A stretch of DNA of 34,932 bases. Source: Candidatus Poribacteria bacterium. Its GTDB lineage: Bacteria; Poribacteria; WGA-4E; PCPOR2b. The DNA lies in contig JAJEAL010000092.1 in assembly GCA_022822785.1 (NCBI GenBank), forward strand, positions 1 to 34,932, given 5' to 3'. Below are positions 4,937 to 12,231 of the stretch, piece by piece (the stretch's first letter is position 1; the number at the start of each line of letters is the position of its first letter). A model generated the notes under the pieces. It had not been told where the DNA came from. It saw only the letters and a list, made by a program, of their open reading frames with translations, and did no database searches. The position numbers and the translations under genes are program-made.

Positions 4937-7900
4937 TTAATTGGCTGCGCCCACCCCATTCGACTCAATCCGAACAGAAAACCACTTATAAAGTGCAGGG
5001 ATCACCAATAATGTCAAAATGGTTGATGTGACCAATCCCCCGACGACTACTGTCGCTAACGGACGCTGCACCTCGCTGCCGGTGCCTTGTGAAACCAATA
5101 GCGGAATCAGTCCTAGTGCGGTAGTAATCGCGGTCATCAATACTGGTCGCAGTCGTTGGCACGCACCCTCCACCGATGCCCCATCCATTGGTGTCCCATC
5201 GCGGACGAGCCGGTTGAGATAGTGGACTAACACCATGCCGTTCTCTAACGCTATACCAAACAGAGCAATAAATCCGACAGAAGCTGGCACAGAGAGATTC
5301 TGCCCCGTTAGCCACAGTCCAACAACACCCCCAACCAACGCTAACGGGATGTTGAGAATAATTAACAACGCATTCTTCAGAGAGTTGAAACTCGAAAACA
5401 GGAGCAGAAAAACGATGAGCAGCGTTATTGGGACGACAAGGGAAAGCCGCTTGTTCGCCTCCTGTTGGAGTTCAAACTGACCGCCCCAGCTTATAAGATA
5501 GCCGGACGGAAACTGAACTCTTGCGTCGATCGCTCTCTGCGCTTCTTCGACAAAAGAACCGATGTCCCTTCCCCGAACATTGGCCTGCACCGTAATGAAC
5601 CGTTGGTTGTTCTGCCGCGTGATCTGGCGCGGGCCAACAATCTCTTCAATCACCGTTAATTCATCAAGCGGCACTTTCACACCGTCCGGTGCCGAAATCA
5701 AAATATGACCAATAGTCTCTAAACTACGGCGACTTTCAGGTGTATAGCGAACCAGAATATCAAAGCGGCGAATACCTTCAAAAATCTGTCCTGCCGCTTC
5801 CCCACCCACAGCAGTTTGAATCACACCCTGCACATCTACAACGTTAATCCCATAACGGGCAATCGCCTCGTGGTCAATGGTGATACGAAGCTGCGGTGTG
5901 CCAGTCACCTGATCTTTCTGTACATCCGCCGCGCCCTTTATCGTGCGAATGACCGTTTCGACTTCAGCGGCTTTCTTTTTCAACACCTCCATATCAGGGC
6001 CAAAGATTTTGATTGCCAACTCCGCTTTGATCCCGGTCAAGAGTTCATCGACAGCAATAGCGATAGGTTGACTGAAATTCAACTGTACGCCGGGAAAATC
6101 TTCAAAAGCATGACTCATCTTGGTGTAAAGTTCGTCAAGTGTTTTCGCTGAAGTCCATGCTCTCTTATCCTTGAGCCGGATGAAAATCTCTGCATTGTTC
6201 ACCGGATCAGCGTGCGCCCCAATCTCACCACGCCCCACCCGTGTGACGATCTGTGTCACCTCTGGAAACTTCTCCTGCATTTCGCGTTCGACGTGGAGAA
6301 TTGTATCACGGGCATCTGTTAAAGAGATTGACGGTGCCATTGTGGCACGAATCAACAAGTCCCCCTCATTGAGGCGAGGAACGAACTCCGAGCCAAGGAG
6401 CGGAAAGATAACCACACCGACGACTAGCATCAGTACCGCCAATCCCACTGCAAATAATCGAGAACGGACAAAAAAGCGTACCGCGGGTTGATATGAAACT
6501 ACGAGAAACCGAACAATTCGACTTTCATCCCGGTCGGCATCTGTATCTCCGCGTTGGCGTGGTCTTCGCATGAGAAGTAACGCCGCGACCGGAGCCATCA
6601 ATAACGCGAAAATCAACGACCCTCCCATTGCCAGTGCGACAGTGTATGCCAGCGGACGAAAGGTTTTCCCTTCAACACCACCCAAAGTGAACAACGGTAG
6701 GAAGACGATAATAATAATCGAGATTGCAAAGGTAATTGGCCGTGCGACTTCGATACAAGCACGTGCAACGACTTGACGCTGTACCTCTGATGGATCGGAC
6801 ATCCGTAGATGTCGATCGACATTTTCCACCATCACGATCGTACCATCTACCATCATGCCGATAGCAATCGCAAGTCCACCAAACGACATTAGATTCGCCG
6901 AAATCCCGTATGCGTTCATCAGAATAAAAGCAAAGAAAATTGAAAAGGGAATGGCGATTGCAGCGACCACACTCGGTCTCAGACCGCCCATGAATGCCAA
7001 AAGTACAATCGCAACGAGGATAATCCCCTGAATGAGCGCACCGGTTACCGTCTTAACACATTTGGAAATCAGCGTCGCTTGATCATAGTACGTCTTAACC
7101 TTGATTCCGGGTGGCAGCACCTTGTTGACCTGTTCCATCCGTGTTTTTACATCACGGATAACGGTTGAGGTGTTCTCACCGATCAGCTTCAGCACCATAC
7201 CCACAACGGTTTCGCCTTGACCGTTGATGGTTGTCAATCCGCGCCGGATTTCCCCACCAATAGTGACATCAGCAATCTGATGGAGATATACGGGCGTACC
7301 ATCTTCCGCTTTCAACACAATCCGTTCAAGGTCAGAGATCTTCGCCGCAAGTCCAACTGAGCGGACGATGTACTCCTCGGAGTTCTTTACGATAAACTGC
7401 GCCCCCACATTGGCGTTATTCGCCTTGACCGTTGCCACAATCTCATCAAGTGTCAAGTCATACCGTAGAAGGTCGTCGGGTCGAACGAGGATATGGAATT
7501 GCTTAACCTCCCCGCCAATGGACAGCACTTCTGTAACGCCAGGAACAGTTTGCAGATTGAATTTAATGAGCCAGTCCTGTACTGTCCTCAATTCAAATGG
7601 GTCATAAATCCCCTCCGTATTCTCCACAAAGTAAAAAAGGATCTGTCCAAGCCCGGTCGTGATGGGACCCATCTCCGGCTCGCCAAAACCTTCGGGGATC
7701 CCCTCGCGGGCGTTCTGTAGTCTTTCACCCACCAACTGCCGGGCAAAGTAGATATCCATGCTGTCCTTAAAGTAAATATTCACAACCGATAAACCGAAAT
7801 TGGAAACTGAACGGATCTCCTTGAGGTGGGGAAGTCCGTTCATGGCAACCTCGACAGGATAGGTCACATATCGCTCGACCTCCTCTGGCGCAAGCCCTTC

Positions 7901-8056
7901 GGTGAGTGTGAAGACCTGAACCAACGCCGGCGTCACATCGGGAAAGGCATCGACAGGTAGCTGACGGTAACTGTAATAACCTGCTACCATGACTAGCAGC
8001 CCGATAACAATAATTAGTAGGCGGCGACGTAGGGCAAATTCGATGATTTTCTGCAT
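4937..8056 (-). CDS. heavy-metal efflux RND pump (CusA/CzcA family)
   Basis: A 1039-residue inner-membrane proton/metal antiporter of the HME-RND family and the motor of the tripartite efflux system. It has the classic layout: TM1 near residues 10-27, a large periplasmic loop, TM2-6, a second periplasmic loop and a C-terminal TM bundle. The TM4 signature reads AIGMMVDGTIVMVEN with Asp404 and Glu411; the first Asp of the CzcA-type DFG motif is absent. By eye alignment the three periplasmic methionines that bind Cu/Ag in CusA are not conserved (for example RYGINVVDVQ where CusA has RYGM). This favours divalent ions over Cu(I)/Ag(I), but substrate class is unproved. ATG at 8056 has GGAGGAGG upstream. 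It is last in its operon, 15 bp after the adaptor gene. Confidence 0.95.
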   Translation of the reverse strand: MQKIIEFALRRRLLIIVIGLLVMVAGYYSYRQLPVDAFPDVTPALVQVFTLTEGLAPEEVERYVTYPVEVAMNGLPHLKEIRSVSNFGLSVVNIYFKDSMDIYFARQLVGERLQNAREGIPEGFGEPEMGPITTGLGQILFYFVENTEGIYDPFELRTVQDWLIKFNLQTVPGVTEVLSIGGEVKQFHILVRPDDLLRYDLTLDEIVATVKANNANVGAQFIVKNSEEYIVRSVGLAAKISDLERIVLKAEDGTPVYLHQIADVTIGGEIRRGLTTINGQGETVVGMVLKLIGENTSTVIRDVKTRMEQVNKVLPPGIKVKTYYDQATLISKCVKTVTGALIQGIILVAIVLLAFMGGLRPSVVAAIAIPFSIFFAFILMNAYGISANLMSFGGLAIAIGMMVDGTIVMVENVDRHLRMSDPSEVQRQVVARACIEVARPITFAISIIIIVFLPLFTLGGVEGKTFRPLAYTVALAMGGSLIFALLMAPVAALLLMRRPRQRGDTDADRDESRIVRFLVVSYQPAVRFFVRSRLFAVGLAVLMLVVGVVIFPLLGSEFVPRLNEGDLLIRATMAPSISLTDARDTILHVEREMQEKFPEVTQIVTRVGRGEIGAHADPVNNAEIFIRLKDKRAWTSAKTLDELYTKMSHAFEDFPGVQLNFSQPIAIAVDELLTGIKAELAIKIFGPDMEVLKKKAAEVETVIRTIKGAADVQKDQVTGTPQLRITIDHEAIARYGINVVDVQGVIQTAVGGEAAGQIFEGIRRFDILVRYTPESRRSLETIGHILISAPDGVKVPLDELTVIEEIVGPRQITRQNNQRFITVQANVRGRDIGSFVEEAQRAIDARVQFPSGYLISWGGQFELQQEANKRLSLVVPITLLIVFLLLFSSFNSLKNALLIILNIPLALVGGVVGLWLTGQNLSVPASVGFIALFGIALENGMVLVHYLNRLVRDGTPMDGASVEGACQRLRPVLMTAITTALGLIPLLVSQGTGSEVQRPLATVVVGGLVTSTILTLLVIPALYKWFSVRIESNGVGAAN

Positions 8057-8071: not shown

Positions 8072-10015
8072 TTAATGGTCATGGCCATCGCCAAAAGCAC
8101 CTTTGCTCAATTCGGCTTTCAGCGTAAACGCGCCCTTCGTCACATAGCGCTGCCCCGGTTGTAACCCTTCCGTCACCTCAACATAGGTTTCAGTACTCCT
8201 CCCAAGCGTAACGGGAGCCGGCACAAAGCCCTCCTCCGTCTGAACAAAAACAGAGAGCCGGTCCTCGACCGTCTGCAGAGCGACTTTGGGAACGAGCAGC
8301 GACACATCAACTTCATCGACCGCAATTTTTGCTGTGACGAACAGCCCCGGACGCCAGTGACCATCAGGGTTTGGAAGTACGACTCGCCCCAATGCTGTTC
8401 GAGTGTGCTCATCGAGCAGTGGACTTACCCAAGTAATCCTTTCCCTTGCCGTGAGTATACCGGGTCCAGCAGAGAGCACTACGGGGAGGTCTTTCCGTAC
8501 AATGGGTAGGTCTTTCTGGTAGACGCTGATTGTGACCCACACTGAAGACAGATCGGCGATCACAAACACCTTACTATCGTCCTTTAACGCTTCGCCCAAG
8601 ACAATATGTTTTTCGACCACGACACCATCAAATGGCGCATACATCGCGGAGCGGGTCACGTCAGGACGCTGCCCAGAGGAAATATGGTCCAATGCTGCGG
8701 TTTCGTCATCGCTCAGCCCCAAAATATGGAGTTTCCGTTCAGCCGCCCACAGCTTCGAGCGTGCAACTTCAAGCGTCTGCTGTGCGACCTTCAGATTTTG
8801 CTCGGCAGCACGGACTCCCATCTCTGCCACTTGCAATGCACTTTCAGCGGCGTGCACCGCACCTGTGGCAGACTTCACCGCACCGCCGGCAGCCTTGAGG
8901 GCCTGTTCAGCTTCTTGGACATCACGCACCGTGGCATCAAGCGCCCGTTTCTTCGCCATCAAAGTCAGACGATTCTGGAACGCTAGTTCCTCGGTGGTGG
9001 CTTCAAATGAGGCTTTCGCAACGGTCCATCCCTTCTGTGCTTCAAGGTAATCAGACCCGCTAGAAATCCCTTTCTTACGAAGCGTTTTTTCGCGTTCATA
9101 TGCGGCATCGGCAAAATTCAACTCCGCATACGCTTGGAGGACGTGCTTGCGATTTTCACCAATCGGTTTGCCTTTGAAGGCATCGGTAATCTCGTCTATT
9201 GTCACGCTTTGTGCAAGCTGTTCGAGGAGTTCATCTGTATTGTCGTGCACTGTTTTACCCCATTGGTAGTCGGTCTCCGCAATCTCCGCTTCCGCTCGCT
9301 TCACATCCGCGGTTGTTTCCACTATTGACACACGGGTAACGGCAAGATCATAGTCGGTTTGAGCAACCTCTACTTGCGTTTGAGTAACACCGTGGTGTGC
9401 TTTAGCAACCTGAAGTTTGCTCTCCGCCAAATTAACGTTAGCTTGGGCAACATCAAGATCTGCTTTCGCACCGAGGTACGCCACCTGTGCCTCACCCATC
9501 TCCGGGCTATCAAGAATTGCTAGAATTTCTCCGGCGTGAACCCGGTCACCGAGTGTTTTTCTTACTTCCCGCACAACGCCGGGTACGCGCGGTGTGACAT
9601 GGGCAATGCGGTCTTCATTAACAGTAACCTTGCCGGGGAGACTGATGCCTACCGGTAGTTTCCCCGCGCTCGCTGTAGCTACCTCAATGCCGAACTTTTT
9701 CATATCAGCCTCCGAGAGCATGACCACGTCTTTATGTTCATCATGGTCCTCATGCGCGTCGTGCTCACCATGCTCGTCACGGTCTGTGTGCTCGTCATGA
9801 CCTACATGCTTACCCGCTTCGTCCTCATGCGCCTCGTGACCGCTATCTGTGTCATGGTCTGCATGGTCGTCGTGGTCGGCGGTCTTCTCAGCGTGCTCAT
9901 GTCCATCTTGAGCCATAAGGTCGTTCGTTCCAATCTGCCATGCCACGAAAAGCCCTAGCGCAGCCACAGTGATAATAAGTAATGCTTTTCGATCTTTCAG
10001 TGTCCGAATCTGCAT
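8072..10015 (-). CDS. His-rich periplasmic adaptor (membrane fusion) subunit of metal RND efflux system
   Basis: A 647-residue CusB/CzcB-type adaptor linking pump and outer-membrane channel. An N-terminal membrane anchor or signal (residues 10-28) is followed by a segment at 39-94 with 15 histidines among Asp/Glu, a probable metal-binding region. The two halves of the lipoyl/barrel-sandwich domain lie near 135-170 and 455-500, and between them is a very long Ala/Glu/Gln-rich coiled-coil hairpin (about 175-430). A beta-barrel and C-terminal domain follow, ending in GDGHDH. Typical adaptors have 380-520 residues; the extra length comes from the His-rich segment and the long hairpin. The ATG at 10015 is preferred over the adjoining TTG at 10018, with AAAGGAG eight bases upstream. 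The outer-membrane factor gene precedes it by about 97 bp. Confidence 0.93.
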   Translation of the reverse strand: MQIRTLKDRKALLIITVAALGLFVAWQIGTNDLMAQDGHEHAEKTADHDDHADHDTDSGHEAHEDEAGKHVGHDEHTDRDEHGEHDAHEDHDEHKDVVMLSEADMKKFGIEVATASAGKLPVGISLPGKVTVNEDRIAHVTPRVPGVVREVRKTLGDRVHAGEILAILDSPEMGEAQVAYLGAKADLDVAQANVNLAESKLQVAKAHHGVTQTQVEVAQTDYDLAVTRVSIVETTADVKRAEAEIAETDYQWGKTVHDNTDELLEQLAQSVTIDEITDAFKGKPIGENRKHVLQAYAELNFADAAYEREKTLRKKGISSGSDYLEAQKGWTVAKASFEATTEELAFQNRLTLMAKKRALDATVRDVQEAEQALKAAGGAVKSATGAVHAAESALQVAEMGVRAAEQNLKVAQQTLEVARSKLWAAERKLHILGLSDDETAALDHISSGQRPDVTRSAMYAPFDGVVVEKHIVLGEALKDDSKVFVIADLSSVWVTISVYQKDLPIVRKDLPVVLSAGPGILTARERITWVSPLLDEHTRTALGRVVLPNPDGHWRPGLFVTAKIAVDEVDVSLLVPKVALQTVEDRLSVFVQTEEGFVPAPVTLGRSTETYVEVTEGLQPGQRYVTKGAFTLKAELSKGAFGDGHDH

Positions 10016-10112
10016 CAAATCATCTCCTTTGAAAACATGAAAGTTTCCCAGTCAGGGTGTACCTATGTCAGCAACCCAAATGTTCAAATCCTATACTCCC
10101 TTATTCTCCTAC

Positions 10113-11465
10113 TCATTGAAGAGGCTCTCCAATCAACCGTTCCACATCAGCAAGCGCTTTGTGGTATTTTGCTAAAGCATCAATATACAAACCTCTCACA
10201 TCAAAGAGGGTTCGCTGGGCATCAAGCATCTCCAAGAAGTCAAATTTGCCGATGCGATATCCTTCGGTTACAGCATCAAATGCGCTTTGAGCACTCGGCA
10301 GCACTTCGTCTTTCAAGGACGAAACGGTGCCGGTGGCGGTAGAAAGTTCACCATAAGTAGTAGCGAAGGCTGTATGAATCGCAACTTCCGCCGATCTTCG
10401 CTCCTCCAACGCCTGTACGAAATCGTATTCAGCCTCAAGTATTGCTCCTTGGTTCCGACCAGAAAGCGGAAGCGGAAGGGATACCCCAAAGACAAATGCA
10501 ACATCGTCACTCTCGTTGAAGTACTTCATTCCGCCATTGATAGACAGGCCGGGAACACGCCTCGACCGTTCTAGCTGAACTACCGCCCGACGGTGTGCCA
10601 TCTCTACCGGCCAACGTGCTAGGTTTGGGTGTTGGGAAAGCCGATTTACTAAATGCTCGACAGTTGGAATGGGTTTGGCAGTGTCAAGTTGCCCTTCTAA
10701 CTTTTCAAACGCAGGTGATGTACTACCCCAAGTGGCAGCCAACACAAAACGTGCCCCTTCAAGCCCACGTTTGGAAGCCTCGAGGGCAATTCGGCTGTTC
10801 ACCAGTTCCACTTGAGTCCGCATCTGTTGAACAGGCGAAACCTTTCCTGCCTCAACCTGTGCTTTGACAGTATTGAAAACCTGTTCCGCTAGCCTCACCA
10901 ATTCCGCATTCAAAGCGACCACCTCCTGCGCCGCAAGCACATCAATAAAAGCTTGGTTTACTCGGGTCACCACATCAAGACGTTCCGCTTCATAGTCCCA
11001 GCCGGCGAGTTCCGTCTCTAGAGCAGCGACCTGTCTCTCTTTCCCACGTACCCCACCGAGTTCAAGCGGAATACCGAGTTGAATCGCCGTTTCAATTGCG
11101 CGGAGACCACTCAGATCCCCCGAACCACCGAACTCCTCGATTTCAGTTTCTAATTCCGGGTTCGGACGAAGTCCAGCTTGGAGCGTTTTTGCTTCTCCAG
11201 CACGGACTTCCCAAGAAAACGCTTTTAAGCCAGGATTGTGCATTAGTGCCAGCGCGAGGGCTTGGCGTAGATTTATTGTCCCCGTTGGCTCTTCCAGTTG
11301 GGACGATTCCTCAACCGTTGGTGGACGAATTGGGGGTTTTGGGGTTGTCAGGTCCTTGCCCAAAGGACGGGCTTCTTGCCAAGCTACATCTACTTGGTGG
11401 GCACCGCAGCCAGTGAACAAAATCAGCAGCATGGTGCCAAAGGACATAATGATCTTCTGTCGCAT
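10113..11465 (-). CDS. TolC-like outer-membrane factor lipoprotein (CusC/CzcC family)
   Basis: A 450-residue outer-membrane channel component. The N-terminus is a lipoprotein signal with lipobox LFTGC, giving lipidated Cys20. Two outer-membrane-efflux repeats follow: the first opens with LRQALALALMHNPGLKAF and has LQAGLRPNPELETEI and GIPLELGGVRGKE; the second includes VSLPLPLSGRNQGAILEAE and GYRIGKFDFLEMLDAQRTLF, all common in CzcC/CusC proteins. It acts as the exit duct for the adjacent adaptor and pump. Its Shine-Dalgarno GGAGG (11471-11475 complement) sits five bases before the ATG and is inside the 3' arm of a 13-bp inverted repeat, so translation may depend on the upstream gene. Confidence 0.93.
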   Translation of the reverse strand: MRQKIIMSFGTMLLILFTGCGAHQVDVAWQEARPLGKDLTTPKPPIRPPTVEESSQLEEPTGTINLRQALALALMHNPGLKAFSWEVRAGEAKTLQAGLRPNPELETEIEEFGGSGDLSGLRAIETAIQLGIPLELGGVRGKERQVAALETELAGWDYEAERLDVVTRVNQAFIDVLAAQEVVALNAELVRLAEQVFNTVKAQVEAGKVSPVQQMRTQVELVNSRIALEASKRGLEGARFVLAATWGSTSPAFEKLEGQLDTAKPIPTVEHLVNRLSQHPNLARWPVEMAHRRAVVQLERSRRVPGLSINGGMKYFNESDDVAFVFGVSLPLPLSGRNQGAILEAEYDFVQALEERRSAEVAIHTAFATTYGELSTATGTVSSLKDEVLPSAQSAFDAVTEGYRIGKFDFLEMLDAQRTLFDVRGLYIDALAKYHKALADVERLIGEPLQ

Positions 11466-11467
11466 AG

Positions 11468-11578
11468 GATCCTCCGAAATACATACAACGAAATATTAAT
11501 TGGATGAACTTACCAATTGAGGTGTATATAGACACAATTCACCCATACATTAGAAGCTGTCGTGAATTTCGGAGGATC
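11468..11578 (-). promoter_or_regulatory. inverted repeat sequestering the Shine-Dalgarno of the outer-membrane factor gene
   Basis: On the transcribed (minus) strand, GATCCTCCGAAAT (11578-11566) is perfectly complementary to ATTTCGGAGGATC (11480-11468), 13 bp with an 85-nt intervening region. The first base of the 5' arm is the last base of the TAG stop codon of the small upstream gene. The 3' arm contains the GGAGG ribosome-binding site of the outer-membrane factor gene. The intervening RNA holds a further 6-bp stem (AATTGG/CCAATT, 11498-11518) that would bring the arms together. A ribosome finishing the upstream gene would cover the 5' arm and free the site. The pairing is visible; coupling is inferred. 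Confidence 0.65.
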
Positions 11579-12036
11579 TAGATTAGAAGGGTAACAGTAC
11601 GAAGGGAAACGAGTGTGGGATTAACTCTTAGTTGAAAATTGAGAAGGAAAGTATCGGTTGAGATTGAATTTAAGATAGGTTGAGTGACCGGAATCGCCAA
11701 CGTGTTAAATTGTGGTATGTTCTTTTGGATCGGAACAATATACGGTCCTTCAGCACTCGAAATAAAAATAGGTAAGTCTAAACATTGCCCACAGTGAGAC
11801 TGAATCGGCGGAGGCTGATAGGCAGACAGAAAATTGGAAGGCTTCTGCTGCGTTGCCGTCAGAAATGAAGCACACCGTCCATCGTGTGCCGCCTCAATCT
11901 CCACATGACCATCGGCACCGATACATAGCATCATGGTCGGTAGCGGTCCCTGGCTTGCAAAAACGCAGATGAGCAACCACACCAATAGGATAGCTTTTTT
12001 GTTGGGTGTGTAAGATAAAGATTTCATAAAATCCAT
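11578..12036 (-). CDS. small exported Cys/His protein at head of the metal-efflux operon
   Basis: A 152-residue protein of unknown function. A hydrophobic segment at residues 15-31 (AILLVWLLICVFASQG) looks like a signal peptide or anchor. After it come MLCIGADGHVEIEAAHDGRC (Cys38, His44, His51, Cys55) and HCGQCLDLPI (His81, Cys82, Cys85), a set of residues able to bind a metal or form disulfides. Short proteins with a C-x-G-x-DGH and HCG-x-C pattern are, from memory, found beside CzcCBA-like genes in other bacteria, but no function is known to me. AAGGAG lies upstream; ATG at 12036 or 12027 could be used. It is first in the operon, and its stop codon touches the inverted repeat before the channel gene. 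Confidence 0.7.
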   Translation of the reverse strand: MDFMKSLSYTPNKKAILLVWLLICVFASQGPLPTMMLCIGADGHVEIEAAHDGRCASFLTATQQKPSNFLSAYQPPPIQSHCGQCLDLPIFISSAEGPYIVPIQKNIPQFNTLAIPVTQPILNSISTDTFLLNFQLRVNPTLVSLRTVTLLI

Positions 12037-12175: not shown

Positions 12176-12231
12176 GTAGGTCGATTTTCCAAAATCGACA
12201 ACTTTCTGTCGAAATATGAATCTCGACCTAC
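12176..12231. repeat. small palindromic intergenic element
   Basis: A 56-bp element bounded by GTAGGTCGA (12176-12184) and TCGACCTAC (12223-12231). Inside are GTCGATTTT/AAAATCGAC (12180-12188 and 12191-12199, 2-nt loop) and CGACA/TGTCG. The right end shares TATGAATCTCGACCTA with 29642-29657. It lies between priA and the efflux operon and could also act as a terminator-like structure after priA. It is probably a REP/MITE-like repeat. Confidence 0.6.

Follow-up and report, generated by a model that had tools for sequence, protein, structure and literature searches.

The DNA analyzed here, referred to below as the window, is the 34,932-nt contig JAJEAL010000092.1 (assembly GCA_022822785.1) from a Candidatus Poribacteria bacterium. 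Open reading frames and Pfam matches on its minus strand define a gene cluster in which a small gene is followed by genes for an outer-membrane factor, a membrane-fusion protein and an RND pump. The stop codon of the small gene is separated from the outer-membrane factor gene by 111 nt that end in ATTTCGGAGGATC-CT-ATG, with GGAGG located 5 bases 5' of the ATG. The features of this region are as follows, in the order of transcription.

11578-12036, minus strand: small upstream cistron, an ORF of 152 codons (152 aa) with TAG at 11580-11578 and the C-terminus PTLVSLRTVTLLI-stop; by comparison with homologs it has an N-terminal hydrophobic segment, LCIGADGHV...C, HCGQCLDLPIF and a variable linker
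11566-11578, minus strand: 5' arm (anti-Shine-Dalgarno) GATCCTCCGAAAT, starting at the last base (G) of the TAG
11481-11565, minus strand: loop region of the spacer, itself folded according to RNA folding, with the inner helix ACAGC/GUUGU below the main stem
11468-11480, minus strand: 3' arm ATTTCGGAGGATC, which includes the Shine-Dalgarno GGAGG (11475-11471)
10113-11465, minus strand: outer-membrane factor of the TolC/CusC/CzcC type, ATG at 11465-11463 (PF02321, OEP, 9.6e-44)
8072-10018, minus strand: membrane-fusion protein of an RND pump, CusB/CzcB type, with a His/Asp/Glu-rich N-terminal stretch (PF16576, 2.2e-42)
4937-8056, minus strand: RND efflux pump of the CusA/CzcA type (PF00873, 3.1e-297)

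The N-terminus of the membrane-fusion protein (window positions 9780-9960, minus strand) carries a long His/Asp/Glu-rich run, DGHEHAEKTADHDDHADHD..., which is likely a metal-binding tail. A perfect 9-2-9 palindrome, GTCGATTTTCCAAAATCGAC, is located in the gap that separates the small gene from the primosomal helicase gene (window positions 12180-12199); it overlaps a weak promoter-like site and is a possible operator, and it is not kept in the sister species.

The two arms, GATCCTCCGAAAT (11578-11566) and ATTTCGGAGGATC (11480-11468), can form 13 uninterrupted base pairs; with one mismatch allowed, the complementarity extends to 16 nt. A previous sequence-only reading of this DNA had described a 13-bp perfect inverted repeat in this gap (11566-11578 and 11468-11480), with the 5' arm beginning at the final base of the TAG that ends the small gene (11580-11578) and the 3' arm carrying GGAGG (11475-11471) 5 bases ahead of the outer-membrane factor ATG; each of these placements was confirmed. 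Its description of the locus as a metal-efflux operon with a Cys/His upstream cistron is likewise correct, as judged by the Pfam matches and by the alignment of homologs. The folding suggested by the same reading was run on the spacer RNA from stop to ATG, yielding a minimum free energy of -40.0 kcal/mol with the GGAGG arm paired, compared with -21.2 +/- 3.1 kcal/mol in shuffled sequences (z -6.1; z -6.8 with a second shuffle set). The entire spacer is structured, beyond the two arms, with the inner helix stacking under the 13-bp stem. Pairing of the Shine-Dalgarno (SD) with the 25 nt just past the stop has a probability of 1.00, a value matched by none of 200 shuffled spacers. As a genomic control, we used 833 kb of the bacterium's own 5.6-Mb genome with mechanical gene calls and considered same-strand junctions with gaps of 40-300 nt. 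Among 298 such junctions the window stem ranks first with a score of 32, and the runner-up (score 28, gap 41) is a product of overlapping test regions; pairings of 7-8 bp with the SD occur at about one-third of the junctions. A search of the spacer against Rfam matched no family, and no intrinsic terminator was called at the spacer, as there is no T run after the stem.

Homologs of the small gene were identified in 42 of the 85 Poribacteria genomes searched, three of them being C-terminal relics, and the intact genes nearly always precede an outer-membrane factor gene. The search was extended beyond the phylum by one scan of genome contigs, which returned the sister species alone, and by a scan of a plasmid collection, which returned one operon of Salinibacter ruber; there, on plasmid pSR61, a distant homolog likewise precedes TolC, adaptor and CusA/CzcA genes, and the SD is unpaired with the post-stop region in the model. 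The small protein has no family match in Pfam, against which 12 members were tried, or in NCBIfam. Family-wide features include an N-terminal hydrophobic segment, LCIGxDGHV, a further Cys, HCGxCxDLxIF, and PTLxSLRTVTLLI placed directly at the stop. The conserved hydrophobic stretch, which was judged by inspection of aligned members, is a putative membrane or export segment, while HCGxCxD, present in almost all members, is a candidate metal-binding motif. On average, 69.4 residues (s.d. 1.08, range 67-73, n = 35, sequence relatedness uncorrected) separate the second Cys of the CxxC from the stop, and the length between the first Cys motif and the CxxC is variable, at 36-61. Conservation of the linker is poor, with a mean majority-residue fraction of 0.42 vs. 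0.85 over the last 13 residues. Because the small genes differ synonymously in their last codons, and each of the three stop codons occurs in the family, the C-terminal constraint acts on the protein. Both the C-terminal motif and the spacing are also kept in members without the SD stem; in addition, the G070 homolog (L086) ends in SVSLRSIVLRI-stop, and its downstream neighbor resembles a gene for a peptidyl-prolyl isomerase/lipoprotein instead of an outer-membrane factor. The motif may therefore serve the protein rather than a stall. Structure prediction from two sequences gave a mean pLDDT of 35, too low to be informative. In the three relics (L083, L084, and L085, in genomes G025, G057, and G003), only the last 24-25 codons of the small gene and the post-stop bases remain, at apparent deletion junctions. 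A short leader peptide consisting of the C-terminal motif alone was considered and rejected, since these three matches are gene remnants with no efflux gene downstream.

The spacers between the small gene and the downstream gene, whose start codon was picked by SD strength, range from 54 to about 460 nt across the family. In all six members with spacers shorter than 140 nt (the window, G000, as well as G004, G035, G079, G010, and G066), the 25 nt that follow the stop contain the pairing partner of the SD, with a pairing probability of 1.00 in five members and 0.77 in G010. The observed pairing was matched by none of 200 shuffles in G000, G004, and G035, by one in G079, by three in G010, and by five in G066. 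The genomes G000/G004 and G035/G079 are related pairs, thus the six cases count as about four lineages. The arms are GAUCCUCCGAAAU in the window genus, UCUUUUCCAUAU/AUAUGGAGAAGA in G035 (12 bp, unrelated in sequence to those of the window, and the same in G079 with one G-U), and UCCUCAC/GUGAGGA in G010 (7 bp); in G066, which has a spacer of only 54 nt, the pairing lies in the 25-nt stretch past the stop. The stop codon is the starting point of the 5' arm in the window, and the arm starts no more than 1 nt from it in four other short-spacer loci, G066 being the exception. The stem is not family-wide, because most members with spacers longer than 190 nt leave the SD unpaired near the stop; four modeled members of this class do have the stop-proximal pairing (G017, G013, G028, and G040). 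The sequence-only reading had staked its claim on the presence of the stem in homologous operons, and this part stands for spacers below 140 nt, where no stem is missing (0 of 6), and falls for most of the long-spacer homologs. The G008 genome from the window's family has kept AUCCUUC/GGAGGAU in a spacer of 201 nt, with the SD mostly pairing elsewhere in the model. At this locus (L036) the ribosome-binding site TTTCGGAGGATC is retained, and a GC-rich, hairpin-bearing stretch, CCCCCGATCTTCAATCGGGG, which is possibly an insertion, separates its ATG from the conserved outer-membrane factor N-terminus. In several long-spacer members (L049, L093, L039, and L061), the pair of Leu codons that precedes the stop (CUCCUCAU) shows complementarity to the SD of the next gene (GUGAGGAG/AUGAGGAG), and thus the anti-SD may lie within the coding region there.

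Over 26 loci, cognate arms pair better than non-cognate ones, though modestly (p 0.019), the test being only weakly positive because the long spacers dilute it. The sister species G004 has kept 12 of the 13 main-stem pairs, with one C-G changed to U-G and the outermost pair lost; its inner helix contains one double change from C-G to U-A and one change from G-U to A-U. The structure is 97.5% paired across the window and G004, vs. 30-50% for slid versions, in a comparison of two sequences for which the shuffle control is uninformative. Compensatory changes, which the previous reading had looked to the homologous gaps for, are represented by that single double change in the inner helix, seen between just two sister species. 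Its central observation, a stem anchored at the stop that hides the next ribosome-binding site, is backed by the folding, by the same-genome controls and by recurrence with unrelated arms. The stem itself, its position, its stability and its recurrence are established by computation.

A ribosome positioned on the stop codon was modeled by barring pairing up to nine nucleotides past the stop. The cost of opening the window GGAGG is 18.0 kcal/mol with the ribosome 30 nt upstream vs. 3.3 kcal/mol with the ribosome on the stop, in folding models that take no account of cotranscriptional folding or Poribacteria growth conditions. This drop of 14.7 kcal/mol is the largest among 186 junctions of the own genome (gaps up to 200 nt), for which the next value is 5.7 and the median is 0. 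The fraction of open SD in the model with the ribosome on the stop is still only 0.15-0.39, thus the estimate describes a released block and not full exposure. Across the family, the drop amounts to 4.9-14.7 kcal/mol in the six short-spacer members vs. a mean of 2.3 kcal/mol in the longer-spacer members.

We propose, with a probability of roughly 0.72, that the spacer RNA serves as a translation-dependent switch for the outer-membrane factor gene, and that its hairpin is probably openable only by a ribosome finishing the small protein. As long as the end of the small gene is free of ribosomes, the SD of the outer-membrane factor would be concealed in the 13-bp stem. A ribosome that reaches the TAG, and perhaps pauses there, would cover roughly nine nucleotides at the start of the 5' arm; the pairs with GGAGG would then be peeled off, and a second ribosome could load on the efflux gene. 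Given the 111-nt spacer, it would be likelier for a new ribosome to load on the opened site than for the terminating one to slide. We infer one transcript for both genes, a ribosome-driven opening and the size of its effect.

As read from sequence, the layout resembles the copper-sensing CutF switch, built on a protein without detectable kinship to CutF. In Rhodobacter capsulatus, a stem-loop after cutF masks the cutO SD, and cutO expression requires that cutF be translated in cis and exported with its Cys and C-terminal motifs intact, a requirement that is lifted by an anti-SD mutation (PMC9973294). In both systems, a small Cys-motif protein with a conserved C-terminus, putatively exported in the present case, heads a metal-homeostasis operon, and the next SD is located in an intergenic hairpin; however, the Poribacteria family has CxxC with His instead of CxxxC, and LRTVTLLI-stop instead of a proline-rich end. 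A survey of CutF-like genes found outer-membrane efflux proteins among their commonest neighbors, often downstream, its criteria being PP among the final 15 residues and a length below 150 aa (PMC9973294), under which the Poribacteria family would have been omitted. In Bordetella pertussis, CruR-bfrG operates by stalling relief and Rho-dependent termination, with copper lowering expression (PMC9426467). CruR shares with the window protein a CXXC at a fixed distance from a conserved C-terminal motif and a metal-linked operon, its next gene being 162 nt downstream (PMC9426467), whereas the window has an SD stem and no RAPP, and about 54 residues separate the CxxC from the P of PTL vs. about 45 residues between the CruR motifs.

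The traits common to CutF/CruR that we found here are the CxxC motif, the fixed spacing from Cys to the C-terminus and, except in most long-spacer members, the next SD in a stem-loop. No Pfam match to PF11162 (DUF2946) was obtained for 12 members, and nothing exceeded the cut-off in the genomes of 59 relatives. An hhalign comparison with a CzcI/DUF2946-type alignment, in which five of the eight members match PF11162, gave a probability of 10% over the signal segment only. A proline-rich RAPP-like C-terminal motif is absent, the end being LRTVTLLI-stop. Since both DUF2946 homology and the C-terminal proline motif are lacking, we classify the system as CutF-like in anatomy but not as a CutF.

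By analogy with CutF, the upstream Cys/His protein would likely tune the switch with metal. One tentative extension is that the protein acts as a nascent-chain sensor: it would be exported while being made, metal at HCGxC would alter the dwell of the ribosome at LRTVTLLI-stop and hence the time that the hairpin stays open, and the pump would be produced at high extracytoplasmic metal; the long-spacer relatives might act in a CruR-like way, via transcription termination. This extension is consistent with a small protein that combines a putative N-terminal export or anchor segment with a CxxC/His motif at the head of an RND metal-efflux operon, with a CxxC-to-stop length that is fixed despite an unconserved linker, and with a C-terminal constraint that is exerted at the protein level while synonymous codons vary. 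There is a precedent in the cutO SD hairpin, which opens only upon translation and export of CutF with intact Cys and C-terminal motifs (PMC9973294), and three of the four criteria for arrest peptides upstream of sec genes apply here, the sec neighbor being the missing one (PMC10987492). It is countered by the C-terminus without a proline motif, by the undetected DUF2946 and the 10% signal-segment hit to the CzcI-type profile, and by the fact that members lacking an SD stem retain both the C-terminal motif and its spacing, as does G070, where a non-efflux gene comes next. Rather doubtful is the stronger statement that the LRTVTLLI-stop family is a metal-responsive arrest peptide unrelated by sequence to DUF2946, CutF, CruR, or SecM, in which HCGxC, 69 residues from the stop, would meet metal on leaving the export channel and set how long the terminating ribosome holds the hairpin at the RND-operon ribosome-binding site open, with another mode, perhaps termination control, in the long-spacer relatives.

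A static hairpin that dampens translation of the outer-membrane factor gene, or adjusts the stability of the mRNA or its response to temperature, whatever the upstream ribosome does, appears unlikely: its modeled stability suffices to block initiation alone, but a 13-bp stem would nearly silence an essential pump subunit, and a static stem has no need for a 5' arm placed inside the footprint of the terminating ribosome, as it is in the window and four other short-spacer loci. The 13-bp terminal inverted repeat, the 111-nt length and the CTA flanking both sides in the window would suit a MITE-like insertion whose ends overlap the ribosome-binding site by accident; however, the own 5.6-Mb genome contains no second copy, the sister species G004 carries the element at the equivalent site, with about 18% loop changes and without the CTA flanks, and other lineages build the same stem from unrelated sequences, which leaves this origin very improbable. 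A multi-copy element was rejected because the own genome holds a single copy. It is similarly hard to credit a chance match between a pyrimidine-rich post-stop stretch and a purine-rich SD, for although SD complements arise easily, as do the 7-8 bp pairings at about one-third of own-genome junctions, the 13-bp perfect match is unique among the 298 junctions, is kept in G004 and recurs in four lineages.

The proposed translation-dependent switch can also be compared with other regulated gene pairs. SecM-secA and related systems (PMC10987492) similarly involve a small upstream protein (putatively exported in our case) with a conserved C-terminal end and a stem-masked next SD that would be opened by a ribosome near the stop, but the window protein has no SecM- or RAPP-like motif and its downstream gene encodes a metal-efflux channel instead of a secretion factor. 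In the classical cases of MS2 coat/replicase, L35-L20, and L11-L1, a masked downstream start is opened by upstream translation (summarized in PMC9894550). Unlike in these cases, the masking arm of the window lies directly after the upstream stop and outside the coding region; a further difference is the Cys/His-rich, putatively exported upstream protein. The known nascent exported metal regulators are a few DUF2946 proteins, mostly from Pseudomonadota and Bacteroidota, that were spotted via the C-terminal proline motif. Should the Poribacteria family function in a similar way, the principle would have arisen more than once, proline-motif screens would miss part of its instances, and the fixed CxxC-to-stop distance would provide a sequence rule for finding further such proteins. 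The window hairpin is a clean and directly testable construct with two arms, one stop codon and two cysteines.

A counterpart in gene order is CzcI of the czcICBA operon in Cupriavidus metallidurans, a small exported Cys/His protein with a CxxC whose gene likewise precedes outer-membrane factor, membrane-fusion protein and RND pump genes, yet profile comparison shows no homology past the signal segment, and the hairpin after czcI begins at the stop while excluding the czcC SD. In the czcI-czcC spacers of Cupriavidus, Thauera, and Variovorax (L137 1207-1285, L138, L139, and L143), a strong hairpin is located right past the czcI stop, with the czcC start outside the stem; the arms in Cupriavidus are UGAUCGGCGAG...CUCGCCGA, and this post-stop hairpin might be an attenuator-like element.
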